The notes under the pieces are model-generated. The model saw only the letters and a list, made by a program, of their open reading frames with translations. It had not been told where the DNA came from and did not search any database. Positions 10,848-29,232 of a DNA stretch of 64,000 nt are shown piece after piece. Origin of the DNA: Parabacteroides distasonis (GTDB taxonomy: Bacteria > Bacteroidota > Bacteroidia > Bacteroidales > Tannerellaceae); contig NZ_SRYM01000004.1 of NCBI RefSeq assembly GCF_004793765.1, positions 62,001 through 126,000 of the forward strand, read 5' to 3'. Made by a program: the position numbers and the translations under genes. Numbering within the stretch: position 1 is the first letter of the stretch; every line of letters begins with the position of its first letter.

Positions 10848-10884
10848 AGTACTTAATTTTACAAGCGTTAGAAATTAATAGAGG

Positions 10885-10892: not shown

Positions 10893-11092
10893 CGTAAAAT
10901 CTTTGAATGTCTATTAAACTTTGTGGAAAAATGGTGAAACACTTCGTGTCATTTACATACCTATTGTACGGGATAGTTTAATAAAATTTCTCTATCTTGA
11001 TATAAAAGATTTGTTTTACAGTTACTTATACTTGCCGTGTTTTTGCGGTACAAGAAAAACAAAAAGTATAACAATTTAAAAAAGTAGCAATT

Positions 11093-11749: not shown

Positions 11750-12547
11750 ATGGAAAACACGCTACCAAATATGGAAAAAGTGGACGAGAATTACAAAGTG
11801 CCTAATTTAGAGAAGGGCATAGCGGTTCTTGAGTACCTTTCCTTGCGGTCGGCGGGGGAAACATTGCAAGATATTAAGTCGGTGCTCGATATATCTCAGA
11901 CTACGGCTTACCGTATTTTGAATACATTGGTGCGGCTGGAATATCTTAATTTTAGTGAAGACACGAAACGCTATAAACTTTCCCGAAAATTATTGACTCT
12001 TGGTTTCAGATCCTTGAATGAACACAATCTTTTAGAGACCGTCTTGCCACATTTGCGTGATTTACGTGATCAAGTGAAAGAGACCGCTTGCTTTGGTGTC
12101 TTGGGAGATGAGAAAGGAATTTTTATCGAACAAGCGCAAGGACATCATACGTTCCGCTTCGTCCTGTCGCCGGGAAAGCCGTTTGAATTGCATTGTTCGG
12201 CTCCCGGAAAGGCGATTATGGCTTATTTGCCGAAGACGGTGCGAGATCGCTACCTATCCTACATGACGTTTACACGGTATAATTCCCGGACGATAACTTC
12301 TCGTGAGGGCTATTTGGAGGAATTGGAGAAGGTTGGTAAGCTGGGATATGCCATGGATAATGAGGAGGAGCTGAGCGGCGTGATATGCGTAGGCTCCCCG
12401 ATCTTTAATTATACGGGATATCCTTGTGGAGCGATTTGGATCTCCGGCCCGAAAGACCGCTTATCGAAAGAGGTGGTGAAAAATACGGTGAAGGTGATCA
12501 AGGAGGTTGCTGGGGTGATCTCGAACGAACTAGGATTTAGAAAATAA
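11750..12547 (+). CDS. IclR-family transcriptional regulator
   Basis: This 265-residue protein has an N-terminal winged helix (about residues 20-80, with the recognition region LDISQTTAYRILNTLVRLEYL) and a C-terminal IclR effector domain (about 90-260) holding the usual SAPGKAIMAYLP and GYAMDNEEELSGVICVGSPI elements. IclR proteins usually sense a small carboxylic, aromatic or sugar-derived ligand and control an adjacent catabolic operon. The next gene starts 17 nt after its stop and all genes to 29182 are on the same strand, so it is the likely master regulator of this block. Two ATGs are possible (11750 and 11771), both within a repeated AAATATGGAAAA context; I take the first. Confidence 0.92.
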   Translation: MENTLPNMEKVDENYKVPNLEKGIAVLEYLSLRSAGETLQDIKSVLDISQTTAYRILNTLVRLEYLNFSEDTKRYKLSRKLLTLGFRSLNEHNLLETVLPHLRDLRDQVKETACFGVLGDEKGIFIEQAQGHHTFRFVLSPGKPFELHCSAPGKAIMAYLPKTVRDRYLSYMTFTRYNSRTITSREGYLEELEKVGKLGYAMDNEEELSGVICVGSPIFNYTGYPCGAIWISGPKDRLSKEVVKNTVKVIKEVAGVISNELGFRK

Positions 12548-12564
12548 GGAATACGAAATATACC

Positions 12565-14340
12565 ATGAACACACGAAAATACTTGATAAAAAACTCATTG
12601 GTGGCTTGTCTTGTCGGCTGTTGCGTTTCTCTCGCTTCAGCCGGCAACCCACCTTTCTTTACTACGGATGCCGTATTGAATGCGAAGGGGGAGCTATTGA
12701 TGACACAGAAAGGAACGAGACATCTGGATATCTTTTCAGCGGACGGTAAGAGTTTGCTTCGTTCGTTTCCGTTTGATGAGATCCCGACTGGGTTGCTTTT
12801 GGATGGGGATAATGTGTATGTGACGACCTTTGAGAAGACCGGCCGCCTACAAGTTCTTTCCTTGGAATCGGGTAGGGTGGAAGCGGCTATACCGACGGGA
12901 TCGGGAGCCTGCCATCCGATATTCGGGCCGGATAAGAAACATATATATGTATGTAATCAGTTCGATAATTCGGTGGTCGAGGTAGATCCGGTGATGCATA
13001 AGGTAGTCCGGAGCGTGAAAGTGTTGCGTGAGCCTAAATCGGCGGTATTCAGCAAGGATGGCAAGTATATGTTTGTTACGAATTTCCTGCCCGCACAACG
13101 GGCGAACGTGGATGTGGTGGCCGCTTGCGTATCAGTAATCGAGATGGATGGGTTTACGAAAGTGAAAGATATCCAATTGGCGAATGGTAGCAATGCCTTA
13201 CGGGGGATGTGTATCACGCCGGACGGGAAATATATATACGTGTCTCATAACTTGGGACGATTCACGGTGCCTACTTCTCAACTTCAACAAGGTTGGATGA
13301 ATACGAGCGCTTTCAGCGTGATTGATGTGGCGAAGCAGGAATTCGTTGGGGCGGTATTGGTGGACGAGCCGGATCGTGGTGCTGCCGGTATCTGGAGTAT
13401 CGCTTGCGATGACAAGCATATCTTTATCACCCATAGCGGAACGCATGAGGTGAGCGTGATTGATCATCCGGCGATGTTGGCGAAGTTTGAGTCTTATAAG
13501 AATAAGAACCGTCTGGATTACGACTTGAATTTCTTGTATGGACTTCGTGAGCGAGTTCCCTTACAAGGAAACGGTCCCCGGAATTTTATATTTTCGGGAG
13601 ATAAGTTGATAATCCCTACTTATTTCGCCGATATCTTGAATACCATCGATATAAATACATTGGAGGTGACGGTTACCGACATGAATCCGGGTCGTACGGA
13701 AACGCCGGAGAACAAGGGCGAGAAATACTTTAACGATGCGAATCATTGCTATCAAGGCTGGCAGAGTTGTAACGGTTGCCATCCGGGGGATGGCCGTACG
13801 GACGGGATGAACTGGGACTTGATGAATGACGGGGTCGGTAACTCGAAGAATTGTAAGAGCATGTTGTATTCGCATGTGACCCCCCCAAGCATGATCTCGG
13901 GTGTTCGTGAGAGCGCAGAATATGCGGTACGTGCCGGTTTTAAGTTCATCCAGTTTTTTGAGCCGGAAGAGGAAATGGCGAAATGTGTGGATGCTTATAT
14001 GAAATCTTTGCGTCCGGTGCCTAGCCCGTATTTAGTAAATGGGGAATTATCGGATAAGGCGAAAGAGGGAAGAAAGGTGTTTGAGAAACTGAAATGTGGC
14101 GAGTGCCATAGCGGTCCTTATTATACGGATATGAAGATGCATCGTATCGGTGAGGATATAGAATTTGAGAAAGGGTGGGATACTCCTACTTTGATCGAGG
14201 TCTGGCGTACGGCTCCTTATCTGTTTGATGGGCGTGCGGCTACCATGGAAGAGGTATTCGAGGTCCATAAGCATGGCATCGATAAAAAGGTTTCCAAGAA
14301 AGATATCGAGGCGTTAACGGAATATGTAAACTCCCTGTAA
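12565..14340 (+). CDS. Secreted YVTN beta-propeller / cytochrome c protein
   Basis: This 591-residue exported protein has a signal peptide (about 1-26). Residues about 30-380 form a YncE/YVTN-type beta-propeller, with repeated GKYIYVSHN, DKKHIYVCN and SVIDVAKQEFVG blades. The C-terminal third is a cytochrome c module with two haem-binding motifs, C402-N-G-C405-H406 and C511-G-E-C514-H515. Its text (DTPTLIEVWRTAPYLFDGRAATMEEVF) resembles the dihaem peroxidase/MauG family. It should act outside the cytoplasm as an electron-transfer or peroxidase-like enzyme. Its haem needs attachment by a cytochrome c synthase, and a CcsBA is encoded in the same block (20451-22898). The substrate is unknown. 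Confidence 0.85.
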   Translation: MNTRKYLIKNSLVACLVGCCVSLASAGNPPFFTTDAVLNAKGELLMTQKGTRHLDIFSADGKSLLRSFPFDEIPTGLLLDGDNVYVTTFEKTGRLQVLSLESGRVEAAIPTGSGACHPIFGPDKKHIYVCNQFDNSVVEVDPVMHKVVRSVKVLREPKSAVFSKDGKYMFVTNFLPAQRANVDVVAACVSVIEMDGFTKVKDIQLANGSNALRGMCITPDGKYIYVSHNLGRFTVPTSQLQQGWMNTSAFSVIDVAKQEFVGAVLVDEPDRGAAGIWSIACDDKHIFITHSGTHEVSVIDHPAMLAKFESYKNKNRLDYDLNFLYGLRERVPLQGNGPRNFIFSGDKLIIPTYFADILNTIDINTLEVTVTDMNPGRTETPENKGEKYFNDANHCYQGWQSCNGCHPGDGRTDGMNWDLMNDGVGNSKNCKSMLYSHVTPPSMISGVRESAEYAVRAGFKFIQFFEPEEEMAKCVDAYMKSLRPVPSPYLVNGELSDKAKEGRKVFEKLKCGECHSGPYYTDMKMHRIGEDIEFEKGWDTPTLIEVWRTAPYLFDGRAATMEEVFEVHKHGIDKKVSKKDIEALTEYVNSL

Positions 14341-14351
14341 AATAAAAGGAT

Positions 14352-15446
14352 ATGAATTATTGTGAGAAAATACATTATACGATATTAAGCACCGAGCCGG
14401 CTGAGTTCGCGGTTATGGTGGACGATCTATTGTCTCAATTACCTCAAAACGAGGTGATCATGAGGCTGGCCTTTTTCGGTACTCCGGGTACGAATGAGGA
14501 ATACGTGGCACGCCGGGTTTTGCTGCGGGAGAAGATTCGTCGGTATTATGGGGAGTGCGAGCCGGCCTTGAGCTATGTCTCCCAGCCGCCATTGAACGCT
14601 CCTTTGCTGATGGAGGTACATAGCTATGTGCCCGATGCACAGGATCGGATTACTTTCCGTCATTATCAAGGTGTTCCTTATGTCTTGTTGGAGAATGTCT
14701 CGGGGCGTTTTCTTTTTGCCGGCGGTTTTCAAGGAGATGTACTTCATTTTGGTATCGAGCCTCAGTCGGTGGAGGCTTTCCGGTTATTGGGGGATGTACT
14801 TCGTCGGGAGGGTTTTCCGTTGAATAGCATTATCCGTCAGTGGAATTATATCGAGCGTATAACCGCTTTCGACGGTCCGGATCAGCATTACCAAGCGTTT
14901 AATAACGCTCGGTCTGATTTTTATAGTAAGGTGGACTGGACGAATGGGTATCCTGCCGCTACGGGTATCGGGGCGAATCTGGGAGGTATCTTGATCGATG
15001 TGGATGCCGCCGTGTTTATTACGCCGGGTGCTTTCGCTACTCCGATTGATAATAAGTTGCAGGTGGCTGCCCATGCGTATTCGGAACAAGTACTGGAAGT
15101 TGCCCGACAAAAGAAGACGACCCCTAAGTTCGAGCGTGCCAAGAGCATGACTTTTCAGGATCGTAAATTGATTTATATTTCCGGTACAGCTGCTATCCGT
15201 GGTGAGGAGAGCTTGACGGGAGTAGGTCTGGAACGTCAGCTACGGATCACGATGGAAAATATAGCGGAACTGATCGCTGACGCTAAATTGGTCAAATTAC
15301 GTGTCTACTTGAAGAATAAATCCGACTACGAGGAGGCTGAGCGTTTGATGAATACCTACGGATTAAATATCCCGATCTCTTATATGTGGGCCGATGTTTG
15401 CCGGGATGAGTTACTGATCGAGATCGAGGGAATAGCGATACGTTGA
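14352..15446 (+). CDS. FkbO/Hyg5-like chorismatase-type (YjgF/RidA fold) protein
   Basis: This 364-residue cytoplasmic protein has no signal peptide. Its central and C-terminal parts (about residues 160-360) resemble the chorismatase group of the YjgF/RidA superfamily: a W-N-Y-I-E-R-I segment, an FNNARSDFY segment, YPAATGIGANLGG, and a closing ISGTAAIRGEESL with an AELI/VYLKNKSDYEEA pair of helices. Family members hydrolyse chorismate to hydroxybenzoates or dihydro-dihydroxybenzoate plus pyruvate. I cannot confirm the catalytic residues, so the reaction remains open. It starts 11 nt after the cytochrome/propeller gene. A hydroxybenzoate product could feed a cofactor or quinone for that module, but this is speculation. 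Confidence 0.6.
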   Translation: MNYCEKIHYTILSTEPAEFAVMVDDLLSQLPQNEVIMRLAFFGTPGTNEEYVARRVLLREKIRRYYGECEPALSYVSQPPLNAPLLMEVHSYVPDAQDRITFRHYQGVPYVLLENVSGRFLFAGGFQGDVLHFGIEPQSVEAFRLLGDVLRREGFPLNSIIRQWNYIERITAFDGPDQHYQAFNNARSDFYSKVDWTNGYPAATGIGANLGGILIDVDAAVFITPGAFATPIDNKLQVAAHAYSEQVLEVARQKKTTPKFERAKSMTFQDRKLIYISGTAAIRGEESLTGVGLERQLRITMENIAELIADAKLVKLRVYLKNKSDYEEAERLMNTYGLNIPISYMWADVCRDELLIEIEGIAIR

Positions 15447-15480
15447 AACAAATAGTACTAACAAATATACACAAAAACAA

Positions 15481-16239
15481 ATGAGAAAAGGTTTGAACAT
15501 GAAAATGGCGGCTATGGGATTGGTGTTGGCATCTATGGTCGCATGTACGGGAAAGACAACGACAGACGCTACTTGTTGCGCCGCTAATGGGGAGGGCAAT
15601 TGTCCGGAAGGAACTTGCCGCAAAGAATGCACGAATGCATGTAATACTAACAATCAAAAAAATAAAACAATGGCTTATTCAAAGAAGTACACGAACGCCG
15701 ATTTTTATAAAGACGGCAAGTTTCAACAAGATGTCGCTATGGAAGCGATGAAGGATATGTTTGCTTTCTATGATGTTCCCTTTACGGAGCTGATGGCGAA
15801 AGATATGTGGGTGACAGACTTTGGCTTGGGGGATTTCGAAAATGTAGGTATGGGTGGTATTTTCTGGATCAACGATCCAGAGTATAAGTATTTTGCTCAC
15901 GCTATCTATTTGTTGCCGGGCCAGATGATTCCGGAACACGCCCACGTAAAGACGGACTTCCCGGCTAAACATGAGTCTTGGATGGTAGAGAAGGGTTGGG
16001 TATACAACTTCTCTGAGGTAGGTGACGAGACTCCGAACGCTCCAGCTATCCCCGCCGGACATGGACCGATCAAGAGCAAGAACTTCGTGGTTCAGAAGGT
16101 CGGTGACGTATTGCGTCTGAAGAAATTAGAGACATTCCACTTTATGATGGCAGGTCCGGAAGGTGCTATCGTAGATGAGTGGGCATGCTATCACGACAAC
16201 GCTGGTTTACGTTTCACGAACCAGAAGGCCGCTTTATAA
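15481..16239 (+). CDS. Cupin-domain lipoprotein with a cysteine-rich linker
   Basis: This 252-residue protein starts with a lipoprotein signal (LASMVAC, lipidated Cys22). A short linker holds six cysteines (32, 33, 41, 46, 50, 54). The cupin domain spans about residues 95-250, with metal-ligand candidates in PEHAHVKTDF and KHESWMVEKGW and a later TFHFMMAGPEG strand. The cupin resembles the D-lyxose-isomerase-like group, but the reaction is not established. A second in-frame ATG at 15670 (MAYSKKYTN) would give a 189-residue cytoplasmic cupin without the lipoprotein segment. The gene lies 34 nt after the chorismatase-like gene and 90 nt before the large haem protein. Confidence 0.75.
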   Translation: MRKGLNMKMAAMGLVLASMVACTGKTTTDATCCAANGEGNCPEGTCRKECTNACNTNNQKNKTMAYSKKYTNADFYKDGKFQQDVAMEAMKDMFAFYDVPFTELMAKDMWVTDFGLGDFENVGMGGIFWINDPEYKYFAHAIYLLPGQMIPEHAHVKTDFPAKHESWMVEKGWVYNFSEVGDETPNAPAIPAGHGPIKSKNFVVQKVGDVLRLKKLETFHFMMAGPEGAIVDEWACYHDNAGLRFTNQKAAL

Positions 16240-16329
16240 AGACCTCTAGGGTTATGCTTAATCCTCAGGGTTACCAATCGTGATTCCTTAGGATTTCAAT
16301 AAACAACCTTCTAAATTTAAATTTAATAC

Positions 16330-19300
16330 ATGAATAAATATTGTATAATGGTATCACTCTTGTTGTCGACCTCTCTTCTTGTTTCGGCGGGTCCGAAGCA
16401 AAAGAAGGTGGATAATTGGATTGACGCTGCGGTAAAGCAAAAGTCTGAGCTTCGTGCCTCTTTGGTGAAGGCGAACATGCCGATCATGTCCGCTTGGATC
16501 AAGGCGAAGCAGAAGGCTGTCCCGATGTCCGCCGATTTGACGGGTCAGGATCAGTTGGTACTTGTTACGGCCGCCGGACCAGATGGTACGGATTGGGATT
16601 GGGGTACATGGGCGAATGCCCGTTTAATCAAGGCGGACGGTAGTTCGGTTTGGTTGGATGAGTTAGATCCTGATTATTGGGTTTCTGGCTCGGGCAGTAT
16701 CCGCAAGAATACGGATTTATACGGGAATCCTTTGTTGATCGGCGGTAAGAAATACGATCATAGCGTATTATGCCATGCCAATGGCGTGATGGTGTACAAT
16801 ATCAATAAGGAATATGTACGCTTTGAGGCTGAGGTGGGTTTGGCCGATCAGTCGACGGTAGGTAGTGTATTTTTCCGTATCATGAATGTTTTCCCGAAGG
16901 AGGAGGCCGCACGCTTGCTAGCCGCTTATCCGAAGGAATTAGGAGCCTTAAACGCTAATATCGATGGGTTGGAGAATTGGTTGACTGCTGGCGACGCTTC
17001 CGCAGAGCGTGATATTGTCTTGAATCTGGCTTCTCGTCTGAAAGACGCTGCGTATATAAAGAACGCTGTTAAGCAGATCGAGATGGAAAAAGATATCGAT
17101 ACTCAGATCCGTGAGTACTTGAAACTTTATGAGAAAACTCAACGGATCTGTAATTTGCAGAGCGACTTGGATTGGTTGAATATGGAGGCGATTCGTTTGG
17201 CTTTCAACGATATGAAAAAGCTGAAAGGTTTCGATGCCACTAAGTATCAGCCGGTTTTGGATGAGCTGGAACAACAAGTAAAGAAAGGTTTCGATGGTAT
17301 TTATAGTGGTGATGAGACCGCTTTGGTTAATGCCGAGAAAGCGATCGCAAATAAACGTATGATCTTGTTGGCGAACCCGTTCTTGGATGGTGATAAAGTT
17401 TTGGCTGCCCGCTTTAAATTAGGTGTAAACGCTCATAAGGCAATGGCCCCGGATTTGGGTACGCAGGGTAATAACTGGAGCAACCAAGAGTCCGCCCGCC
17501 GTATGGGATTTGACGCCGATATCGTGGAGCTGAGTAATCTACGGGGGGAGGATGTACAGGTACGGTCGATCTATAAACCAGAAAACGGTTCCTCTATCGC
17601 TGACTTGCGGATGCATTGGGATGGCGATCGTGCGATGTTTACTCAGACGATGCCCGATAAGCGTTGGAATATATTTGAGGTGAATTTGGATGGCTCGGGC
17701 TTTAAGCAATTAATACATAACGAGGAGCCGGATCTGGAGTTTTATGATGGAACCTACTTACCGGACGGACGTATTATCGCTAACTCGAATATCGGTTATC
17801 AAGGCGTGCCTTGTGTAAGCGGTGATGATCCTGTCGGCAATATGGTACTTTATACGCCGGATACGAAGAACTTGCGCCGTCTGACTTTCGATCAAGACGC
17901 GAACTGGAACCCCGTAGTGATGAATAACGGTCGTGTGATGTACACGCGTTGGGAGTACACGGACTTGACGCACTATTATTCCCGTATCGTGATGAACATG
18001 AATCCGGATGGTACGGAGCAGAAAGCGCTGTATGGTAGCGGATCGATGTTCCCGAACAGTACGTTCGATATCCAGCCGTTGCCGGGCCACGGTTCCGCTT
18101 TCGTGGGAATTATCTCCGGTCACCATGGTATTGCCCGTTCCGGTCGTTTGATCGTGTTCGATCCGGCGAAAGCCCGTAAAGGCGCCGCTGGTATGGTACA
18201 GGAGATCCCGTATCGTAACCGGCCGATCGTGGAGGAGATTAAGGATGAGTTGGTAAATGGCGTATGGCCGCAGTTTATCAAACCGACTCCGCTGAATGAT
18301 AAATATTTCTTGGTGGCCGCTAAATTAGATCCACAGGATTTATGGGGTATCTATTTGGTGGACGTATTCGATAACGTGACTTGTTTGCGTAAGGTAGAGG
18401 GTGAGGGCTATATCAGTCCGGTTGCCGTACGTAAGACACAGACTCCTCCGGCTATTCCGGACCGTGTGAAATTGAATGACAAAGAGGCTACGGTCTTTAT
18501 TCAGGATATTTACGAGGGAGAGGGTTTGAGAGGCATTCCCCGGGGTACGGTTAAGTCTCTTCGTCTGCACGCTTATGAGTATGCTTACGTGAAGACTACC
18601 TCCGATCATAACTGGCATGGAATCCAGTCCGGTTGGGACATCAAGCGTATGTTGGGTACAGTACCGGTAGAAGAGGATGGCTCCGCTATCTTCAAGATCC
18701 CGGCGAATACGCCGATCTCTATCCAGCCGTTAGACAAAGACGGAGTGGCTATCCAGTGGATGCGTAGCTGGTTGACCGGTCAGCCGGGCGAGGTGGTATC
18801 TTGTATCGGTTGCCATGAGGACCAGAACCAGATTCCTATCCCGAAACGTGTGATGGCTTCGCAGAAAGCCCCGCATGCGTTGACTCCGCCGGAAGGGGGT
18901 ACTCGTTCGTTCACGTTCGATCTAGAGATCCAACCGATCTTAGATCGTGCCTGTGTCGCTTGCCATAATGGTGAGGGTAAGGCTTTCGACTTGCGTGGGG
19001 GCAAGAAGGATAAATTAGGTTATGGCACTTCTTACTTGAATCTGCATCCGTATGTACACCGTCAAGGTGGCGAGGGTGATATGGTGGTTCTTCAACCGTA
19101 TGAATATCATCCGAACACGAGTGAACTGGTTCGTATGTTGAAGAAAGGGCACTTTAACGTGCAACTGACGGATAAAGAGTGGAAAACCCTTTATAACTGG
19201 ATTGATTACAACGCTCCGGATAAGGGTTATTTCAACGCAAATGTGCTTTCGAAGGATATCATCCCGTATCAAGGCTTCGACCAGATCAAGCGCCGTAAAG

Positions 19301-20334
19301 AGTTGACGGATAAGTATGCGAATGGCGCAGGAGTGGATTGGAAGAAAGAGATCTCCGATTATGCCGCTTACTTGAAGGGTAAAGGTGAGATCAAACCGGA
19401 GATGCCGGAGAAATTGGCTCCTGTCAAGGAAAAAGAGTTGAAGGTGAAAGGTTGGCCTTTTGATGCGGACCGGATCAAGGCTATGTTGGCCGACGAGAAG
19501 GAAACCCGTAAGGAGATTGAGTTGGCTCCGGGTATCAAGATGTCATTTGTTCGCATTCCGGCCGGACAATTCGTGATGGGTAGCTATCGTGGGCAATCCG
19601 ATACTCGTCCAACGGCGAAAGTGAAGATTGACAAAGCTTTCTGGATGGGTGAGTTGGAGGTTACGAACCAGCAATTCAACGTGATTTTCCCGGATCACGA
19701 CAGCCGTTTCGTGGATCAGCAATGGAAGGATCACGTGGTTCAAGGATATCCTGCTAATAAACCGGAGCAACCGGTAATCCGTGTAAGTTACAATGACGCT
19801 ATAAATTATTGTAAGAAGCTGAGTGAGAAAACAGGCTTGAACATCACGCTTCCGACCGAGGCGCAATGGGAATGGGCTTGTCGTGCCGGCAGCGATCAGG
19901 ATTTCTGGTATGGCGATATGAATGCAGACTTCGGCAAAAAGGATAACCTAGCCGACGTAACCACGCTCCTGCTTGCCGTAAGCGGTATTGACCCGCAACC
20001 GATGCCTAAGACTTCTTATTGGTACAAGTACTATACTTACTTACCGAAAGAGGAAGGCGTGGATGATGGCAATTTGGTTCAAGTGGGTGGTAAGCAATAT
20101 GAGGCGAATCCGTTTGGTTTGTATTGCATGCACGGTAACGTGGCGGAATGGACACGTTCAGATTACTTGCCTTATCCTTACAACGAGAAATCGAAAGAGG
20201 TTTCCGAGTATAAGGTGGTTCGTGGCGGTTCTTATATCGAGCGACCGAAATTCTCGACGGCTTATACCCGTAAGGGATATTATCCGTACCAACGTGTGTT
20301 CAACGTAGGCTTCCGGGTAATTATTGAGGACTAA
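16330..20334 (+). CDS. Giant secreted NPCBM / TolB-propeller / cytochrome c / FGE-like fusion protein
   Basis: This 1,334-residue protein has a signal peptide (about 1-20). The domains, in order, are: an NPCBM-like carbohydrate-binding region (about 70-190, WDWGTWANARLIKADGSSVW and DHSVLCHANG); a helical stretch (about 195-345); a TolB/WD-like propeller (about 400-690); a cytochrome c region with two haem motifs (C825-I-G-C828-H829 and C875-V-A-C878-H879, within a PSD1-like context EIQPILDRACVACHNGEG); and a C-terminal formylglycine-generating-enzyme-like domain (about 1070-1334, IPAGQFVMGSY, NVAEWTRSDY, VVRGGSY). The active cysteine pair of true FGEs is absent after VVRGGSY, so this domain is probably structural or binding. 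The parts suggest a surface or periplasmic sugar-oxidising or electron-transfer protein. Its specific substrate is unknown. Confidence 0.85.
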   Translation: MNKYCIMVSLLLSTSLLVSAGPKQKKVDNWIDAAVKQKSELRASLVKANMPIMSAWIKAKQKAVPMSADLTGQDQLVLVTAAGPDGTDWDWGTWANARLIKADGSSVWLDELDPDYWVSGSGSIRKNTDLYGNPLLIGGKKYDHSVLCHANGVMVYNINKEYVRFEAEVGLADQSTVGSVFFRIMNVFPKEEAARLLAAYPKELGALNANIDGLENWLTAGDASAERDIVLNLASRLKDAAYIKNAVKQIEMEKDIDTQIREYLKLYEKTQRICNLQSDLDWLNMEAIRLAFNDMKKLKGFDATKYQPVLDELEQQVKKGFDGIYSGDETALVNAEKAIANKRMILLANPFLDGDKVLAARFKLGVNAHKAMAPDLGTQGNNWSNQESARRMGFDADIVELSNLRGEDVQVRSIYKPENGSSIADLRMHWDGDRAMFTQTMPDKRWNIFEVNLDGSGFKQLIHNEEPDLEFYDGTYLPDGRIIANSNIGYQGVPCVSGDDPVGNMVLYTPDTKNLRRLTFDQDANWNPVVMNNGRVMYTRWEYTDLTHYYSRIVMNMNPDGTEQKALYGSGSMFPNSTFDIQPLPGHGSAFVGIISGHHGIARSGRLIVFDPAKARKGAAGMVQEIPYRNRPIVEEIKDELVNGVWPQFIKPTPLNDKYFLVAAKLDPQDLWGIYLVDVFDNVTCLRKVEGEGYISPVAVRKTQTPPAIPDRVKLNDKEATVFIQDIYEGEGLRGIPRGTVKSLRLHAYEYAYVKTTSDHNWHGIQSGWDIKRMLGTVPVEEDGSAIFKIPANTPISIQPLDKDGVAIQWMRSWLTGQPGEVVSCIGCHEDQNQIPIPKRVMASQKAPHALTPPEGGTRSFTFDLEIQPILDRACVACHNGEGKAFDLRGGKKDKLGYGTSYLNLHPYVHRQGGEGDMVVLQPYEYHPNTSELVRMLKKGHFNVQLTDKEWKTLYNWIDYNAPDKGYFNANVLSKDIIPYQGFDQIKRRKELTDKYANGAGVDWKKEISDYAAYLKGKGEIKPEMPEKLAPVKEKELKVKGWPFDADRIKAMLADEKETRKEIELAPGIKMSFVRIPAGQFVMGSYRGQSDTRPTAKVKIDKAFWMGELEVTNQQFNVIFPDHDSRFVDQQWKDHVVQGYPANKPEQPVIRVSYNDAINYCKKLSEKTGLNITLPTEAQWEWACRAGSDQDFWYGDMNADFGKKDNLADVTTLLLAVSGIDPQPMPKTSYWYKYYTYLPKEEGVDDGNLVQVGGKQYEANPFGLYCMHGNVAEWTRSDYLPYPYNEKSKEVSEYKVVRGGSYIERPKFSTAYTRKGYYPYQRVFNVGFRVIIED

Positions 20335-20373
20335 TAGACAAGGTCTATTTATTGATAAATAACATGGATGCGG

Positions 20374-20421
20374 CAAATTAATCGCCGATTCTTTCAAAAA
20401 TGATTAATTTGCGTACATTTG
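20374..20421 (+). promoter_or_regulatory. Inverted repeat and -7 box before ccsBA
   Basis: An 11-bp perfect inverted repeat (gcaaattaatc at 20374-20384, complement at 20402-20412) lies between the large haem protein and ccsBA. It is followed at once by TACATTTG (20414-20421), an exact -7 box. The repeat spans where the -33 region would be, so it could be an operator or a weak terminator. The -7 box decides that the ATG at 20451 is the real ccsBA start. Confidence 0.5.
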
Positions 20422-20450
20422 TCGCATCAGTGTTATTAATAAATGAGCAA

Positions 20451-22898
20451 ATGAAAACTCTAGAAAGATTTATCTCTTCTTCCGTGACGACTATCGTCCT
20501 TCTATTGATCTACGCCTTTGGCTTGGCTATCGCTACTTTTATAGAGAAGTATCATGGTACTGCCGCCGCTAAAGCGATGATTTACTATTCTCCTGTATTT
20601 TTCTTACTCCAATTCTTATTGGTAGCTAATTTCGTGGCTATCGTTATCAAGCACCAGTTACTTAAGCGGCGTAAATGGGGATTGATGGTCACCCATGCCG
20701 CCTTTATTGTCATCCTTCTGGGCACCCTTGTTTCCCACCTTTTCGGCGAGGAAGGAATCCTTCACCTGCGTGAGGGAGAGGCTAGCGATCGTATCATGAT
20801 CCGTACCTCGGACCAGACTCTCTATCATACGCTTCCTTTTAGCGTAGAACTCGTGAAATTTACCTTAACCCGCTATCCCGGCTCTGCCAGTCCCTCCGCT
20901 TATGAGAGTGAGTTGCTGGTACATGTAGATGGACAGACTTGCCATGCCCGGGTATATATGAATAATGTATTAGACGTGAAAGGCTATCGTTTCTTCCAAG
21001 CCTCCTATGATCCGGATGAGCAAGGTACGGTACTTTCCGTGAATCGAGATGTGGCCGGAAGGAATATTACATATACCGGCTACGTGATTTTAGTGATCGG
21101 CTTCATACTTTGCTTGGTAGGTAAAAACTCCCGCTTCATGAAATTAAGTCGACTGTTGAAAGATTTAAGATCGGGCGCTCGTAAAACGATCCTGTTAGTT
21201 GCGGTTCTTCTTTTCGTAGGAGGCTTGCGGGCGCAAGGTGCGGCTGCTCCCGAGATGAAGGAAGTCATACAGAAATATACGATAAGTCCGGAACATGCCT
21301 CTAAGTTCGGTGCGTTGCCGATCCAGTCGGTAAGCGGACGTATGTTACCAATCAATACATTCTCTTCCGAGGTACTTCGAAAGTTGCATAAATCGGATCA
21401 GTTCGGTTCCTTGAACTCTGATCAGTTCTTGTTGAGTGTCTTGGCTATGCCGGATATGTGGGTCCGGGTGCCGTTTATCGCCTTGTCTAATAGTGAGCTG
21501 GCTAATTATTACGACCTTACGGATAAGGATTGCGCCTATATAGAGGTATTCGATAGTAACGGACGCTATAAATTGCAAGAGAAGCTGGAAGAGGCCTACA
21601 ATAAAATGCCAGCGGAGCGTACCCGCTTCGATAAAGACTTGATCAAGCTGGATGAGCAGGTAAATATCTTCCATCAATTGATCAATTACCAGATGTTAAA
21701 CCTTTTCCCGAAAGAGGACGACCCGGATCACAAATGGTATGCGCCGGGCGATGATTTATCGGCGTTTTCTGGAAAGGACTCCATGTTCGTTACCCACATT
21801 ATGGGTTGGTATTTATCGGAGGTACAGGAAGGGTTGAAGAGCGGTGATTGGGAGAAAGCGGACGAGGTGATCGGAATGATCCATACGTATCAGCAAGCCA
21901 AGAATAAGACGGTAGACATTCGCCCTGAGAAAATACAGGCCGAGATTAAATATAATCAAATGGATGTATTCCGGCAATGTAAGAAAGGGTACTTGATTTT
22001 GGGAGGCTTGTTGCTAGTCTTCGCTTTCGTGGCCTTATTCAAGAAGGAAAAATGGGTTACCTATACGACTTGGGTATTGAGTCTGGGCATTTTGGCCGTA
22101 TTCGTTTTCCATATGTATGGGATGGGAATGCGGTGGTATATCGCAGGTTACGCCCCTTGGAGCAATTCGTACGAGACGATGGTTTATGTGGCTTGGGCTA
22201 CGGTGTTCGCCGGGTTGTTGTTCGTACGCAAGAGTACTCTTACGTTTGCGTTGGCTACTTTATTCGGGGGGATCATCTTGTTTGTGTCCGGCTTGAGTTG
22301 GATGGACCCGCAGATCAATCCGCTGGTTCCGGTCTTGAAATCCCCATGGTTGATGTTCCATGTGGCGGTTATCGTGGGGGCTTACGGTTTCTTCGGCATT
22401 AGCTGTCTGATCGGCTTGACGAATCTGGTGATGATGAGCGTAAGCGGGGAGAAGAACAGCGTGATGCTCAAAGACCGGGTACGGGAATTGAGTATCGTGA
22501 ACGAGATGTCACTTTGGATCGGGTTGGCCCTGATGACGATCGGTACTTTCTTGGGAGCGGTCTGGGCGAATGAGTCGTGGGGACGTTATTGGGGCTGGGA
22601 CCCGAAGGAGACGTGGGCGTTGATTACGATGGTGATATATGTGATCGTGACGCATCTTCGCTTGATACCGAAATGTAATAACCTGTGGCTGTTTAATTTC
22701 ACGTCTATTTTGGCCTTCTATTCGGTGTTGATGACTTTCTTCGGCGTGAATTATTTCTTGAGTGGCATGCACTCCTATGGCCAGAATGACAACGTGAACG
22801 GGATATTTATTTATCTTTATCTGTCGATCATCCTAGTATTGGGAGCTGGCTTTATATCCTATCGGAACAGAACGAATTTTAATAATATAATTGTCTAA
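20451..22898 (+). CDS. ccsBA: Cytochrome c synthase, ResB-CcsA fusion (system II)
   Basis: This 815-residue integral membrane protein moves haem across the inner membrane and attaches it to CxxCH motifs of exported cytochromes. The N-terminal third is ResB/CcsB-like, with membrane segments at about residues 10-30, 45-65 and 75-95 followed by a periplasmic domain. The C-terminal third is CcsA, with several membrane helices and the haem-handling signature WGWDPKETWALI. A frame opens earlier at 20400, but the promoter box at 20414-20421 rules that start out. Its place between two multi-haem-motif proteins and the sugar-phosphate genes suggests that it serves this block's cytochromes. Confidence 0.93.
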   Translation: MKTLERFISSSVTTIVLLLIYAFGLAIATFIEKYHGTAAAKAMIYYSPVFFLLQFLLVANFVAIVIKHQLLKRRKWGLMVTHAAFIVILLGTLVSHLFGEEGILHLREGEASDRIMIRTSDQTLYHTLPFSVELVKFTLTRYPGSASPSAYESELLVHVDGQTCHARVYMNNVLDVKGYRFFQASYDPDEQGTVLSVNRDVAGRNITYTGYVILVIGFILCLVGKNSRFMKLSRLLKDLRSGARKTILLVAVLLFVGGLRAQGAAAPEMKEVIQKYTISPEHASKFGALPIQSVSGRMLPINTFSSEVLRKLHKSDQFGSLNSDQFLLSVLAMPDMWVRVPFIALSNSELANYYDLTDKDCAYIEVFDSNGRYKLQEKLEEAYNKMPAERTRFDKDLIKLDEQVNIFHQLINYQMLNLFPKEDDPDHKWYAPGDDLSAFSGKDSMFVTHIMGWYLSEVQEGLKSGDWEKADEVIGMIHTYQQAKNKTVDIRPEKIQAEIKYNQMDVFRQCKKGYLILGGLLLVFAFVALFKKEKWVTYTTWVLSLGILAVFVFHMYGMGMRWYIAGYAPWSNSYETMVYVAWATVFAGLLFVRKSTLTFALATLFGGIILFVSGLSWMDPQINPLVPVLKSPWLMFHVAVIVGAYGFFGISCLIGLTNLVMMSVSGEKNSVMLKDRVRELSIVNEMSLWIGLALMTIGTFLGAVWANESWGRYWGWDPKETWALITMVIYVIVTHLRLIPKCNNLWLFNFTSILAFYSVLMTFFGVNYFLSGMHSYGQNDNVNGIFIYLYLSIILVLGAGFISYRNRTNFNNIIV

Positions 22899-22916
22899 CT
22901 ATAAATTGAATAGATC

Positions 22917-23231
22917 ATGAGAACATTTAATCACGTAGGAATTGTCACTACGGAAAGTAAAGAAGGGGCGGTTTATAACGAAGGCCTGAGTGTATGGTTG
23001 ACGGATTACAGCAAGAGTCCGAACCGGATCGAGTTCTTGAAATTCGAGAAAGGCAGCTGCCTACCGGAGTTGGTACAGACCAATGGCCATATCGCTTATA
23101 CGGTTCCTTGTTTGGAAAAAGAGTTGGAAGGTAAGAAGGTAATCTTCGGTCCGGCTGTTTGCGACGAACACTTGACGATTGCTTTCATTGAGGAAGAAGG
23201 TATCGCTATCGAGATCATGGAACTAAAATAA
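22917..23231 (+). CDS. Small VOC/glyoxalase-fold protein
   Basis: This 104-residue protein begins MRTFNHVGIVT, the opening strand of vicinal-oxygen-chelate proteins, with His6 as a possible metal ligand. A possible second ligand lies in the GHIAYTVP strand, and the protein ends with a Glu-rich strand EGIAIEIMEL. It is half the length of a full two-module VOC enzyme, so it would act as a dimer. It starts 18 nt after ccsBA and 41 nt before dhaK. It may handle a reactive dicarbonyl or triose in the pathway; this is an inference. Confidence 0.7.
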   Translation: MRTFNHVGIVTTESKEGAVYNEGLSVWLTDYSKSPNRIEFLKFEKGSCLPELVQTNGHIAYTVPCLEKELEGKKVIFGPAVCDEHLTIAFIEEEGIAIEIMELK

Positions 23232-23256
23232 TTCGTAAATCAAAATTCATAAATCT

Positions 23257-23264
23257 AAAGGAGG
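23257..23264 (+). promoter_or_regulatory. Strong Shine-Dalgarno before dhaK
   Basis: AAAGGAGG lies 8 nt before the dhaK ATG at 23273, a near-perfect anti-16S match. Most starts in this window, as in Bacteroidetes in general, lack such a site, so this one stands out. Confidence 0.75.
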
Positions 23265-23272
23265 ATAATACC

Positions 23273-24289: not shown

Positions 24290-24297
24290 ATATATAT

Positions 24298-24912
24298 ATG
24301 AAACAACTTACTATCGAGGCCTTCAAGGCCATGTTAGACAATGCGCTGAAACAAATCAAGGCACGTGAGGAGGAATTCTCTAAATTGGATGCCGTAATCG
24401 GGGATGGTGATCATGGTACCGCTATCGTTGCCGCTATGACAGCCGTGAATAAAAGCGCTCAGTCCGGAACGGAGTTCAAGCAGATGCTTGGTGATATGGG
24501 TATGGACGTGATGATGGAAGTGAGCGGATCGACGAGTACCTTGCTCGGCGCTTTCTTCTTGGGTATGGGCGACCATGCCGAGGGAACTGAGTTAGATGCT
24601 GCGGGCGTGAAAGCTATGTTTGCCGGTGGTCTGGCGAATGTACAACAACAAACCCAAGCGAAACGAGGTGACAAGACGATGATGGACGCCTTGATTCCGG
24701 CGGTGGAGGCTATGCAGGTTTGTACATCGGATGATATCAAGGAAGTCTTGAATGCTGGCGCTAAAGCGGCGCTTGAGGGAGCGGAGGCTACGGTACCAAT
24801 GAAAGCTAATTTTGGCCGTGCCCGTAACTATGGTGAGCGTTCGATTGGTTTCGCTGATAGTGGGGCTACTTCTTGGAGCTGCATGTTTGCTTCATTTGCA
24901 GAGGCGTTTTAA
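24298..24912 (+). CDS. dhaL: Dihydroxyacetone kinase, nucleotide-binding subunit DhaL
   Basis: This 204-residue all-helical subunit carries the phosphodonor nucleotide. The magnesium/ADP-binding aspartates are in VIGDGDHGTA (Asp36, Asp38), and the second loop is in SGSTSTLLGAFF. It follows dhaK by 8 nt. In PTS-type systems DhaL keeps a bound ADP that DhaM rephosphorylates; without DhaM nearby the pair may use free ATP or borrow a donor encoded elsewhere. A hairpin with a bulge (about 24926-24950) follows before the aldolase gene. Confidence 0.95.
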   Translation: MKQLTIEAFKAMLDNALKQIKAREEEFSKLDAVIGDGDHGTAIVAAMTAVNKSAQSGTEFKQMLGDMGMDVMMEVSGSTSTLLGAFFLGMGDHAEGTELDAAGVKAMFAGGLANVQQQTQAKRGDKTMMDALIPAVEAMQVCTSDDIKEVLNAGAKAALEGAEATVPMKANFGRARNYGERSIGFADSGATSWSCMFASFAEAF

Positions 24913-24977
24913 AATAATAAACCGTAAGACGGGCCACGCCCCGTCTTTACAAAATAAATATATAACGAATAATAAAT

Positions 24978-25850
24978 ATGGCAGATTTAGATGATTTGAG
25001 AGAAGGTGCGGACTTCGGTTTAGGCATCAATTGTGAGAATCAGAGTTTCCATGTGAAGGGGGCCGAGAACTTACCTTGGGGTATGAAAGACCGTTTATCC
25101 CGTATCTTCAACCCGAGGACAGGCAAGGCGGTTATGCTTGCTTTCGACCATGGTTTCATCATGGGGCCGACTTCCGGTCTGGAGCGTATCGACTTGAATA
25201 TCGTTCCTTTGATTGAATATGCGGATTGCTTGATGTGTACCCGTGGTATCCTGCAATCTACGATTCCGGCGAATACGATGAAGCCGATTTGTCTTCGTTC
25301 GGATGCTGGAACGTCTATCCTTACTGATTTGAATGATAATGTATTGATCGATATAGAGGACGCTATCCGTATGAATGTCTCTGCCATGGCGGTTATGTTG
25401 GCTATCGGCGATGAGGCGCATGAGGCTAAGACAGTGGCTAACTTATATAAGGCGGTCGATAAGGCTAGCCGTTACAATATCCCGGTAATGGGTGTTACCG
25501 CCGTTGGTAAGCAAATGGCTCGTGACGCTCGTTATTTCGGTCTGGCTTCCCGTATTTGTGCGGAGAACGGCGCTAATATCGTGAAGACCTACTATTGCGA
25601 GGGTTTCGAGAAGGTAGCTGCCGCTTGTTCGGTTCCCGTGGTAATCGCCGGTGGTAAGAAATTACCGGAGAAGGAGGCGTTGGAATTATGTTATAATGCG
25701 ATTAACGACGGTGCGGCTGGCGTGGATATGGGACGTAATGTATTCCAGAGTACTTCTCCTGTCGCCATGATCCAAGCGGTTCATGCGGTCGTGCATCAAG
25801 GTATCACGCCCGATCAGGGATATGAATTGTTTTGTGACTTAGCGAAATAA
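24978..25850 (+). CDS. LsrF-like class I aldolase/thiolase (DeoC/LacD family)
   Basis: This 290-residue TIM-barrel enzyme matches E. coli LsrF closely by eye. It opens MADLDDLREG, continues with LSRIFNPRTGKAVMLAFDHG and GPTSGLERIDLN, has NIVKTYYCEGF containing the likely Schiff-base lysine, and ends with IAGGKKLPEKEALE and GVDMGRNVFQS. LsrF acts on phosphorylated autoinducer-2, but no lsr transporter, LsrK or LsrR gene is present. Next to DhaK and DhaL it more likely cleaves or condenses a ketose phosphate made by that kinase. The substrate is open. Confidence 0.88.
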   Translation: MADLDDLREGADFGLGINCENQSFHVKGAENLPWGMKDRLSRIFNPRTGKAVMLAFDHGFIMGPTSGLERIDLNIVPLIEYADCLMCTRGILQSTIPANTMKPICLRSDAGTSILTDLNDNVLIDIEDAIRMNVSAMAVMLAIGDEAHEAKTVANLYKAVDKASRYNIPVMGVTAVGKQMARDARYFGLASRICAENGANIVKTYYCEGFEKVAAACSVPVVIAGGKKLPEKEALELCYNAINDGAAGVDMGRNVFQSTSPVAMIQAVHAVVHQGITPDQGYELFCDLAK

Positions 25851-25858
25851 TCCAGTCG

Positions 25859-25883
25859 CAGGGGTAGGGTTTACCTGCCCCTG
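25859..25883 (+). terminator. Hairpin after the LsrF-like gene
   Basis: A 10-bp stem (caggggtagg with cctgcccctg, one G-U pair) around a 5-nt loop is followed by tttattta. It lies 8 nt after the aldolase stop and 24 nt before the next gene. It may partly terminate transcription and lower expression of the genes downstream. Confidence 0.5.
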
Positions 25884-25906
25884 TTTATTTATATAAATAT
25901 TAAACC

Positions 25907-26791
25907 ATGAAAATCTATACTTTTATATTATCCGCATGCTTGCTACTCGTATGTTCCGCATGCCATGAGGCGTCGCATCATCTTTTATTAGGCGGTTCCG
26001 GTTGGGACAAGATCGCCATCGTAAACAAGAACACGAAAGGAATTGAATGGGAGCATCCTTTGGAAAAGGGATGGGAATGTAATTCCGTAGCTGTTACTCC
26101 CGATCGGAATATCCTTTTTTCCTATTCGAAAGGGGCGAAGCTAATCACCCGGGATCATGAGGAGGTCTGGAATATCTCCGCTCCAGAAGGTTGTGAGATG
26201 CAGACAGCCCGTGTACTTCCCAACGGTAATTATTTATTGGCGTGGTGTGGAAACCCGGCTGCGATCATGGAAGTGAACGCAAAAGGAGAGATCCTGTCGA
26301 AAACAGATTTCGATACCCAAATTGAGCAACCCCATGCACAATTCCGTCAAGTAAACAAGAATAAGCGAGGCAATTATCTAGTGCCCTTGTTTGCTACCTC
26401 CGAGATCCAGGAAATATCCCCATCCGGTCAATTGCTGAAAAGCGTGAAAGTAAACGGTAACCCGTTTAGCGTAGCTGCGTTGGATAATGGTAATTATCTG
26501 GTCGCTTGCGGTGATGCCCATTGCTTCATCGAACTGAATTTCGAGACCGGAGAGGTCGTTCGTAAGATGAACGCAAACGATATAGAGGGAGCTCAGCTCT
26601 TCTTTGTCGCCCAACTACTCCCTAAACGGGACGGTGGTTTATATATCTGTAACTGGCAAGGACATGACGGAGAGGCGGCGAAAGGACATTTTCCTCAGTT
26701 GATCGAGATAAACGGAGCTGGAAAGATGGTCTGGGATTTGAATGATAACGCCACCTTCGGGATGATCTCTTCTATTTGTCCGATCGATTAA
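25907..26791 (+). CDS. Beta-propeller lipoprotein (PQQ/arylsulfotransferase-like repeats)
   Basis: This 294-residue exported protein has a lipoprotein-type signal (LLLVCSAC, lipidated at Cys19 or Cys16). Repeats such as LPNGNYLLAW, DNGNYLVAC and RDGGLYICNW mark a five- to seven-bladed propeller of the PQQ-like or arylsulfotransferase type. It contains no CxxCH motif. It lies between the aldolase and the transporter in the IclR block. It could be a surface sensor, binding protein or enzyme; its function is not known. Confidence 0.75.
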   Translation: MKIYTFILSACLLLVCSACHEASHHLLLGGSGWDKIAIVNKNTKGIEWEHPLEKGWECNSVAVTPDRNILFSYSKGAKLITRDHEEVWNISAPEGCEMQTARVLPNGNYLLAWCGNPAAIMEVNAKGEILSKTDFDTQIEQPHAQFRQVNKNKRGNYLVPLFATSEIQEISPSGQLLKSVKVNGNPFSVAALDNGNYLVACGDAHCFIELNFETGEVVRKMNANDIEGAQLFFVAQLLPKRDGGLYICNWQGHDGEAAKGHFPQLIEINGAGKMVWDLNDNATFGMISSICPID

Positions 26792-26844
26792 AGATATATC
26801 CGGACTATTAATTATATTTTGTACACCTAAATTCTAAATAATGC

Positions 26845-28164
26845 ATGGAAGAAAAAAACACGAATGCTACTAAACGTCAAAACCCTGTAACTTGGGTTCC
26901 TAGTGTCTATTTTGCTATGGGATTACCATTTGTAGTGCTGAATATGGTTACTGTACTCATGTTTAAGGGGCTAGATATATCAGATGCCCAGATTGCCTTA
27001 TGGACCTCGGTTATCATGTTGCCTTGGACCTTAAAACCTTTATGGAGCCCGTTTCTGGAAATGTATCGTACCAAGAAATTCTTTGTCGTATTGACCCAGT
27101 TGTTGTCTGGTTGCTTATTCGGTTTAGTGGCTTTGGCGTTAAACTTGCCGAGTTTCTTCGCTCTATCTATCGCCTTATTAGGTATTATAGCGCTTAGCGG
27201 AGCTACGCATGACGTGGCTACAGATGGTGTTTATATGAAAGAACTCTCGCCGGAGGATCAAGCCAAATATATCGGTTGGCAAGGTGCGTTCTACAATTTG
27301 GCGAAGATCGTAGCTACGGGTGGTTTGGTCTATCTGGCAGGTTATATGATGCAATATTTTACTGGGATAGGGCTGGAGAAAGAGGCCGTGATATACGCTT
27401 GGATGATCGTTATGTTGCTTTGCGGTACAATCATGATCCTGCTTGGTTTTTATCATATGAAGATGCTGCCTTCGGGCGGGAAAGCCGCTATCGGAGAACA
27501 TTCGTTGAAGGAGAGTTTGGCTGAGTTGTGGCTGGTCTTCAAGGAATTCTTTACGAAGAAGCATATCGTGTGGTATATTTGTTTCATCATATTGTATCGT
27601 TTTGCCGAGGGGTTTGTGATAAAGATCGTACCTTTGTTCCTGAAAGCTCCGGTAGTTGATCAAGGATTGGGGCTTACGGAGCAAGAGATCGGTTTGTACT
27701 ATGGTACGTTTGGAGCGGCGGCGTTTGTGTTGGGCTCTTTGCTCGGTGGATATTATATCTCGGCCAAGGGATTGCGGAAGGTATTGTTTACGCTTTGTTG
27801 TTGTTTCAACATACCGTTTTTGGTATACACGTTCTTGGCGTGTTTCCAGCCGGATAATGGTTTCATTATCGCTTCCGCCATCGTGTTCGAGTACTTTGGC
27901 TATGGATTCGGTTTCGTGGGCTTGATGTTGTTCATGATGCAACAGGTTGCTCCGGGCAGGCATCAAATGGCGCATTATGCGTTCGCCTCGGGTATCATGA
28001 ATCTTGGGGTGATGCTTCCAGGAATGATGAGCGGTTTCGTGAGCGACTGGCTAGGTTACAAGTATTTCTTTATCGTGACCTTGCTGGCGATGATTCCTTC
28101 GTTCTTGGTAGCCTATTTCGTACCGTTCACGTATGACGATAAAGGTAATAAGTTAGTACAGTAA
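26845..28164 (+). CDS. AmpG-like major facilitator transporter
   Basis: This 439-residue membrane protein has about 12 hydrophobic segments and opens with [16 protein letters not shown], the usual start of AmpG-like MFS permeases. The loop [17 protein letters not shown] matches the AmpG-type motif after the fourth segment. AmpG itself imports muropeptides, but Bacteroidetes members of this branch often sit beside glycoside phosphorylases and import sugars. Here it is followed 19 nt later by a GH130 enzyme, so import of a mannoside or similar oligosaccharide is the best inference. Confidence 0.85.
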
Positions 28165-28183
28165 TATTTTAATAGGATTAGTT

Positions 28184-29182
28184 ATGGATAATTTGAAAAT
28201 CGTAGGCGCTCCGCTGCCTGATATGCCTTGGGAAGATCGTCCCGAGGGTAGCAAAGAAGTATTGTGGAGATATTCAAAGAACCCGGTGATTCCTCGTGAT
28301 ATCCTTCCGACATCAAACAGCGTGTTCAACAGTGCTGTTGTCCCTTTCAAGGGTGGTTATGCCGGTGTGTTCCGTTGCGACGATACGAATCGCCGGATGC
28401 GTTTGCACGTAGGTTTTAGTGCGGATGCCATTCGTTGGAATATCTCCGAGACGAAACTCGAGTTTGAGTGTGATGACAAGGAGATTGGTGAGTTTGTTTA
28501 CGCTTACGATCCCCGTGTATGTTTCATCGAGGATCGTTACTACGTGACTTGGTGTAACGGTTATCATGGCCCGACGATCGGCGTGGCTTACACGTTTGAT
28601 TTTGAGACCTTCCATCAGTTGGAGAATGCTTATCTGCCTTTTAACCGTAATGGCGTAATGTTCCCTCGTAAGATTAACGGCAACTTCGCTATGCTGAGCC
28701 GTCCGAGCGACAACGGTCATACTCCGTTTGGTGATATTTTCTATAGCGAGTCTCCGGATCTGTGTTTTTGGGGTAAGCATCGCCATGTGATGTCTCCGGC
28801 TGCGTTCGAAGATAGTGCTTGGCAGTGCATGAAGATTGGTGCGGGCCCTATCCCTATCGAGACTTCCGAAGGCTGGTTGTTGATTTACCACGGCGTGCTT
28901 CATTCTTGCAATGGGTATGTGTATAGCTTCGGTTCCGCTATCTTGGATTTGGAGCAACCTTGGAAAGTGAAATTCCGTTCTGGGCCTTATCTGTTATCCC
29001 CGCAAAAGGATTACGAGTGTATGGGAGACGTTCCGAACGTAGTCTTCCCCTGCGCTGCCTTGTATGATCCGGAGACGAAACGTATCGCTATCTATTATGG
29101 CTGTGCGGATACGGTAACAGGATTGGCTTTTGGCTATATTGATGAGATTCTGGACTTTACGAAGAAACATACAATCATTTAA
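28184..29182 (+). CDS. GH130 glycoside phosphorylase or mannosidase
   Basis: This 332-residue protein, without signal peptide, has the five-bladed propeller text of family GH130: [11 protein letters not shown], an YDPRV segment carrying the likely catalytic aspartate, [24 protein letters not shown], and [24 protein letters not shown]130 enzymes mostly phosphorolyse beta-mannosides (for example mannosyl-glucose), giving mannose 1-phosphate; some hydrolyse beta-1,2-mannosides instead. It is the last gene of the IclR block, 19 nt after the transporter and just before a strong terminator. The linkage specificity is not predictable by eye. Confidence 0.9.
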
Positions 29183-29193
29183 CAGACTCGATA

Positions 29194-29232
29194 AAAACAA
29201 TATACTTTTGCACGAAAGTATATTGTTTTTTT
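29194..29232 (+). terminator. Terminator of the IclR block, overlapping a promoter
   Basis: A 15-bp perfect stem (aaaacaatatacttt and complement) around tgcacg is followed by a run of T. It starts 12 nt after the GH130 stop. TACTTTTG, a -7 box for the next gene, runs from 29203 to 29210 across the left arm and into the loop, with TTTA 21 nt upstream. Confidence 0.85.

Follow-up and report, generated by a model that had tools for sequence, protein, structure and literature searches.

The stretch of DNA analysed here (the window) comprises 64,000 nucleotides of Parabacteroides distasonis (NCBI RefSeq assembly GCF_004793765.1, contig NZ_SRYM01000004.1, positions 62,001 to 126,000; host genome size 4.21 Mb). 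Within it, thirteen open reading frames (ORFs), all on the + strand as the initial annotation had stated, span positions 11750 to 29182. They encode two relatives of the subunits of hydrazine synthase (HZS), the haem enzyme of anaerobic ammonium oxidation (anammox), together with a sugar-isomerase-like cupin, a DhaKL-type kinase and an LsrF-type aldolase, and may form a single pathway for the breakdown of a small sugar. Pfam was run on all thirteen proteins and NCBIfam on ten; the families assigned earlier were retained or gave way to close ones. The features of the block are as follows (E-values in brackets).

11750..12547, + strand: IclR-type regulator, with which the conserved block opens (PF01614 1.7e-38; PF09339 6.9e-9)
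12565..14340, + strand: HZS beta-gamma-like fusion, an exported beta-propeller plus a di-haem MauG/CCP-like part (hydrazine_BC 7.4e-29; CxxCH at residues 402 and 511)
14352..15446, + strand: Rid/FkbO-Hyg5-like protein (PF21168 3.2e-10; PF01042 1.9e-9; TIGR04444 1.2e-24, below cut-off)
15481..16239, + strand: exported cupin lipoprotein related to D-lyxose/D-mannose isomerase (7nzo 2.1e-9; 2y0o 1.7e-8)
16330..20334, + strand: HZS-alpha-like exported protein with NPCBM, propeller and HZS_alpha domains and a C-terminus of the formylglycine-generating enzyme (FGE) fold (CxxCH at residues 825 and 875)
20400..22898, + strand: ResB-CcsA fused haem ligase (PF01578 8e-35; PF05140 1.9e-20)
22917..23231, + strand: VOC-fold protein of 104 residues
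23273..24289, + strand: DhaK-like kinase subunit (PF02733 3.9e-97)
24298..24912, + strand: DhaL-like kinase subunit (PF02734 6.1e-38)
24978..25850, + strand: LsrF-type class I aldolase/thiolase (NF006081, 464.6 bits against a cut-off of 297; LsrF 3gkf 4.7e-105)
25858..25884, + strand: terminator-like hairpin in the lsrF-propeller intergenic gap (-22.4 kcal/mol, z -5.6)
25907..26791, + strand: Mal s 1-like propeller lipoprotein, with which the conserved genes end (PF22701 3.6e-77)
26845..28164, + strand: AmpG-like transporter of the major facilitator superfamily, accessory (PF07690 1.6e-21; TIGR00901 1.4e-39, below cut-off)
28184..29182, + strand: mannoside phosphorylase of glycoside hydrolase (GH) family 130, accessory (PF04041 1.9e-71; UHGB_MP 1.1e-197)
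29193..29230, + strand: terminator-like AT-rich hairpin with a T tract, 3' of the GH130 gene (-15.7 kcal/mol, z -5.9)

The two CxxCH proteins and hydrazine synthase

Two exported proteins with two CxxCH motifs each had been recognized at this locus as cytochromes. Their export and motifs were borne out; what had been missed is their homology to HZS beta-gamma and HZS alpha, seen by profile comparison. The profile of the first matched chain B of the HZS structure (5c2v_B, 6e-34) over positions 32-363 of 594 and chain C (5c2v_C, 2.3e-30) over positions 379-594 in two stretches, and these matches together cover the protein, indicating homology to HZS beta and gamma from end to end. The gamma part also matched the MauG/CCP family (PF03150, 27.9 bits against a cut-off of 25.6). 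The second protein was related to HZS alpha both by profile and by fold, and contains the alpha subunit fold with the HZS_alpha middle domain. All four predicted haem-binding CxxCH motifs were invariant in 16 aligned beta-gamma and 15 aligned alpha rows.

These proteins are nevertheless far from the HZS equivalogs of NCBIfam, whose cut-offs were all missed (100.4 bits against 1250 for hydrazine_BC, and 65.9 against 625, 61.9 against 560 and 44.4 against 800). In HZS, the first CxxCH histidine of alpha is reported to bind zinc, and Tyr591, four residues past it, to be the proximal ligand of haem alpha-I (both from passages of PMC12607021). At the Tyr591 position the window protein has Asn, as do 33 of 36 aligned rows (Ser in two, Tyr in one) and 14 of 15 rows of a wider set (Leu in one). 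The Bacteroidales family is HZS-like, its first haem site being altered, and true HZS membership was rejected since both Tyr591 and the equivalog cut-offs fail. Elsewhere in the alpha-like protein C495 was invariant in both aligned sets, with D425, H598 and H599 nearly so. In the RGGS region of its C-terminus, the window protein lacks cysteines at the place of the catalytic pair of formylglycine-generating enzymes.

Among the matches listed, which may omit the window's own record, the closest named relative of the beta-gamma-like protein is that of Parabacteroides sp. ZJ-118 (95% identity), followed by those of P. gordonii, P. goldsteinii, P. faecis and P. massiliensis (82%). Several variants of the alpha-like gene were observed. 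One genome (L056:6039-10097) carries it as two ORFs of 708 and 636 residues, possibly through gene fission, the second product having a hydrophobic N-terminus of its own. In Bacteroides faecichinchillae (L174:12421-16411) the alpha-like gene is apparently broken into three ORFs. Alpha-like paralogues, 54-59% identical and accompanied by no beta-gamma gene, were found at loci L042-L052 (e.g. L043:10049-14032 and L044:5472-9461), adjoining genes that are of SusC/SusD type by size and position only.

The ResB-CcsA fusion encoded next to the alpha-like gene was the only CcsA found in a search of its own genome (one match). It had been called a dedicated haem ligase, which is too strong, since CcsA was present in all 11 congeneric genomes (of 35) that lack an alpha orthologue.

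Enzymes encoded beside the haem proteins

The cupin had been annotated as a lipoprotein, and both the fold and the export stand; its kinship with sugar isomerases had been overlooked. Its H153, H155, E165 and H220 align with the H, H, E and H of 7nzo, which we take to be the metal-binding residues, and the HxH/E/H pattern is thus retained. These alignments relate the exported protein to D-lyxose/D-mannose isomerase, and an export signal was judged by eye to be present in 55 of 63 N-termini of its homologues.

The DhaK-like gene was the only Dak1 gene found in the genome, and Dak1 and Dak2 domains lie in adjacent genes, as in DhaKL kinases. LerK is presumably also a member of the DAK family. 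It has been described as a kinase for a four-carbon ketose (passages of PMC10733421). The aldolase exceeds the LsrF equivalog cut-off, and Lys203 of LsrF, which we take to be the catalytic residue, is aligned and kept. The E. coli enzyme is reported to convert phosphorylated autoinducer-2 (AI-2) into dihydroxyacetone phosphate (DHAP) and acetyl-CoA (passages of PMC7828210).

Two smaller proteins are less easily placed. The Rid/FkbO-like protein reached 87.2 bits against TIGR04444 (FkbO/Hyg5 chorismatase; cut-off 325) and is probably cytosolic. The VOC-fold protein has four invariant residues of the type that serve as metal ligands in this fold, and could possibly be a metal-dependent isomerase or epimerase.

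Conservation of the neighbourhood

Twenty congeneric loci were scanned by tblastn. The IclR, beta-gamma, cupin and alpha genes were present in all 20, Rid and ResB-CcsA each in 18, and VOC, DhaK, DhaL, LsrF and the propeller gene in 17; of the three loci lacking DhaK, two are cut off by a contig edge. In a set of 35 congeneric genomes, 24 carry alpha orthologues (at least 73% identity), two of them partial with internal stops, and Dak1 was also absent from all four genomes tested among the 11 without an orthologue. AmpG and GH130 occurred in only 2 and 4 of the 20 loci, respectively, two loci ending at a contig edge. The earlier inclusion of the AmpG-like importer and GH130 in the pathway is for this reason abandoned, and neither is regarded as core. 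At one locus (L034) the position of AmpG here, after the propeller gene and before GH130, is occupied by a sodium:solute symporter, so that a transporter and GH130 together resemble an exchangeable cassette.

Beyond the genus, the gene set recurs, rearranged, in other families of the order. At least 569 relatives were confirmed in named genomes and 80 loci were kept, of which 62 have a Rid-family gene and 59 have at least 9 kb of downstream sequence. These 59 carry alpha (59), cupin (48), Rid (43), VOC (39), DhaK (39) and LsrF (22), the last gene often lying past the end of the fetched stretch. The linkage persists at a beta-gamma identity of 54% (L229). Co-occurrence was also seen at the level of whole genomes: in one sample of 344 Bacteroidales genomes, beta-gamma was found in 26 (E <=1e-25), Dak1 in 17 and LsrF in 11 (E <=1e-40). 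Ten of the 11 LsrF genomes also hold beta-gamma and DhaK (Dak1), the exception (G475) being a 44% match with stops, and beta-gamma is present in 12 and absent in five of the Dak1 genomes. Fisher's test for LsrF and beta-gamma gave 1e-11 with genomes and 1.3e-7 with genera as the units, uncorrected for relatedness. The neighbourhood check proposed in the initial annotation therefore came out in its favour, the cytochrome and dhaKL-lsrF genes adjoining in many genomes of several families.

A phylum-wide search matched 127 of 395 genomes at E <=0.001; among the matches listed, those in four genomes covered most of the protein (G000, G405, G426 and G177, the last two at 25-27% identity), the others being partial propeller or cytochrome hits that were not used. 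One metagenome-assembled genome (MAG) labelled Verrucomicrobiales (L224) contains both beta-gamma (59%) and alpha (62%), by transfer or mis-binning.

The strongest sign of a functional tie comes from exchanged partners. In two Rikenellaceae loci (L222 and L226) the HZS-like pair adjoins an FGGY kinase and a DeoC aldolase, with no DhaK at the locus. L141, L058 and L059 also combine the pair with FGGY and DeoC genes; for L226, L058 and L059 the assignment comes from tblastn alone. The DeoC proteins are of two types, about 32% identical to each other. In a 57-row beta-gamma tree, in which only L141 and L222 were labelled FGGY-DeoC when it was built, the two FGGY-DeoC groups fall in separate parts, the L222/L226 group nested among proteins of the window type. 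Because two separate lineages thus pair HZS-like genes with FGGY and DeoC, a kinase and a class I aldolase would appear to process what the haem complex produces. Other HZS-like pairs adjoin GH29, GH95, GH43, GH2 and GH28 genes. At L136:1071-13688 a pair and a Mal s 1-like propeller are flanked by GH29 (two) and GH95 (one) genes, a fucose-type neighbourhood, and at L148 GH95 and L-fuculokinase genes occur some distance upstream.

Two terminator-like hairpins were found, one after lsrF and one after GH130, rather than the one strong bracketing terminator reported before. As to the internal promoter suggested earlier, promoter-like matches did not stand out from shuffled sequence (38 against a mean of 34.6, standard deviation 7.1). 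A Bacteroidetes-type promoter (TTTG/TAnnTTTG) was absent at the block start, and its four matches in the window were equalled or exceeded in 8 of 100 shuffles. Directly upstream (window positions 9921-11581) lies a LysR-type regulator divergent from a Dps/ferritin-family gene, a pair that presumably resembles oxyR-dps.

A candidate sugar route, its alternatives and known systems

What was computed is the gene content, the homologies and folds, and the conservation of the haem and metal motifs and of the linkage; the substrate, the redox direction, complex formation, the electron acceptor, the importer and every reaction of the following scheme are inferred. The block would be one catabolic route for a small, probably C5 or deoxy, sugar, a reading to which we give a probability of about 0.55. 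The exported cupin would interconvert aldose and ketose outside the cytoplasm. The alpha/beta-gamma complex with its four haems, for whose maturation the adjacent ResB-CcsA would provide, would then act on the sugar in a redox reaction, most likely oxidising it to a dicarbonyl. Once the reactive product had been imported, VOC and perhaps the Rid/FkbO-like protein would tautomerise or isomerise it, DhaKL would phosphorylate its CO-CH2OH (hydroxyketone) end, and LsrF would cleave it, with CoA if it behaves like E. coli LsrF, to DHAP and an acyl-CoA; IclR would regulate the block. A C5 deoxy sugar is favoured because LsrF and DeoC both split a C5 phosphate, giving a triose phosphate and, as the two-carbon unit, acetyl or acetaldehyde. 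The block thus suggests that the HZS architecture also serves sugar breakdown. The earlier idea that an exported redox step precedes a kinase and an aldolase in a single pathway gains support from the linkage; that a sugar is oxidised in it is still an inference.

Several observations weigh against this scheme. About a third of the named loci (20 of 59) have an HZS-like gene without DhaK, and Dak1 was absent genome-wide from 15 of the 16 genomes searched among them; the whole-genome search did recover DhaK for L159 and L163, which carry it at the locus. Within Parabacteroides, the third DhaK-less locus (L027, genome G006) has the haem genes and its genome has no Dak1 anywhere. Kinase and aldolase are therefore separable from the haem genes. 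DhaK (291.3 against 406.25) and DhaL (133.2 against 138.3) both fall below their equivalog cut-offs, so that the substrate need not be dihydroxyacetone. The conserved genes include no transporter, no block gene names an electron acceptor, a genome search found no NrfA, and 8 of the 63 cupin homologues were judged by eye to have no export signal. Finally, one clade (L092, L093 and L147-L153) joins a short alpha and a beta-gamma of 24-26% identity to other genes, at L148 (the one locus covered by Pfam) ASPIC/FG-GAP, Rid, two Peripla_BP_6 of amino-acid-binding type, DAHP synthase and a TPR-ASPIC protein. This clade is hard to fit into a sugar scheme.

A bolder form of the sugar reading, which we regard as doubtful, takes the HZS architecture as a general extracytoplasmic haem enzyme for carbonyl and sugar chemistry, with anammox HZS as one specialised branch. 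The Bacteroidales form would turn a ketose into a 2,4-diketose, oxidising for instance a 6-deoxyketohexose, or C4 of 5-deoxyribulose or 1-deoxyxylulose. DhaKL would phosphorylate the diketose and LsrF cleave it thiolytically to DHAP and acyl-CoA, in an undescribed thiolytic sugar pathway.

It is unlikely that two unrelated functions merely share a neighbourhood, MauG-like haem proteins modifying or protecting surface proteins while dhaKL-lsrF recycles dihydroxyacetone. The occurrence of HZS-like genes without DhaKL, the MauG/CCP match of the gamma part and the strong terminator-like hairpin that divides the block after lsrF would fit such a division, but not the genome-wide co-occurrence, the linkage kept in as distant a relative as L229, or the replacement of the partners by FGGY and DeoC in two lineages. 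Retained nitrogen chemistry is distinctly improbable. In that case the complex would reduce nitric oxide or couple hydroxylamine and an amine extracellularly, and Rid would clear reactive enamine or imine products, in keeping with the homology to all HZS subunits and with the frequency of Rid-family genes beside HZS-like genes, also in the distant clade (one locus, L148). The loss of Tyr591 in most alpha-like rows, scores far under the HZS equivalog cut-offs, the missing NrfA match and neighbours that are mostly sugar genes speak against it. We give equally poor odds to the degradation or quenching of AI-2-like dicarbonyls, with DhaKL for LsrK, VOC for LsrG and LsrF as the last step: it agrees with the LsrF assignment and the E. 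coli reaction, but no LsrK or LsrB relative occurs among the block genes, many haem pairs lack DhaK, and this reading would not account for the exported isomerase or the four haems.

For the sugar route that we prefer, the known systems offer partial counterparts. As in DhaKL dihydroxyacetone kinase, both subunits are present and adjacent, but they score below the dhaK and dhaL equivalogs and the block has no DhaM. The Lsr system shares an LsrF above its equivalog cut-off and an adjacent kinase gene; here DhaKL replaces the FGGY kinase LsrK, VOC replaces LsrG and exported haem proteins are added, while LsrK, LsrG, LsrB and the Lsr transporter found no match among the block genes, leaving the block without Lsr transporter or receptor.

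An HZS-like sugar operon in Bacteroidales did not turn up in searches of the open-licence literature, which is weak evidence of absence. Apparently new here are the Bacteroidales HZS-like branch, the operon and its catabolic partners; the idea of a wider family is already in print, as passages of PMC10732223 proposed one with other substrates from KSB1 MAGs. That 2023 tunnel-biofilm study treats HZS as an anammox marker and describes a Phycisphaerae hzsA-like gene adjoining a fused hzsBC-like gene, read as a sign of possible new anammox bacteria (PMC10732223), and in one rumen study KEGG K20934, "hydrazine synthase subunit", is reported to change (passages of PMC12784710). Since gut and other Bacteroidales have a conserved relative of the whole alpha-beta-gamma set that is linked to kinases and aldolases for sugars, metagenomic HZS-type hits need not mean anammox. 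Named Bacteroidales isolates with the block, among them Parabacteroides gordonii DSM 23371 and Bacteroides salyersiae DSM 18765, provide culturable systems in which to probe the chemistry open to the HZS haem architecture.

The block resembles the Phycisphaerae genes in pairing an alpha-like gene with a fused beta-gamma-like gene, and differs from these and the KSB1 genes in its Bacteroidales host, its conserved catabolic partners and its exported isomerase relative. With anammox HZS (PDB 5c2v) it shares the alpha fold, the beta propeller, a MauG-like gamma and two CxxCH motifs in both alpha and gamma, its beta-gamma fusion matching a known fused form. Unlike HZS, the Bacteroidales alpha has extra NPCBM and FGE-fold regions and, in most rows, Asn for Tyr591, and the proteins, well short of the equivalog cut-offs, sit among sugar genes in a non-anammox lineage.

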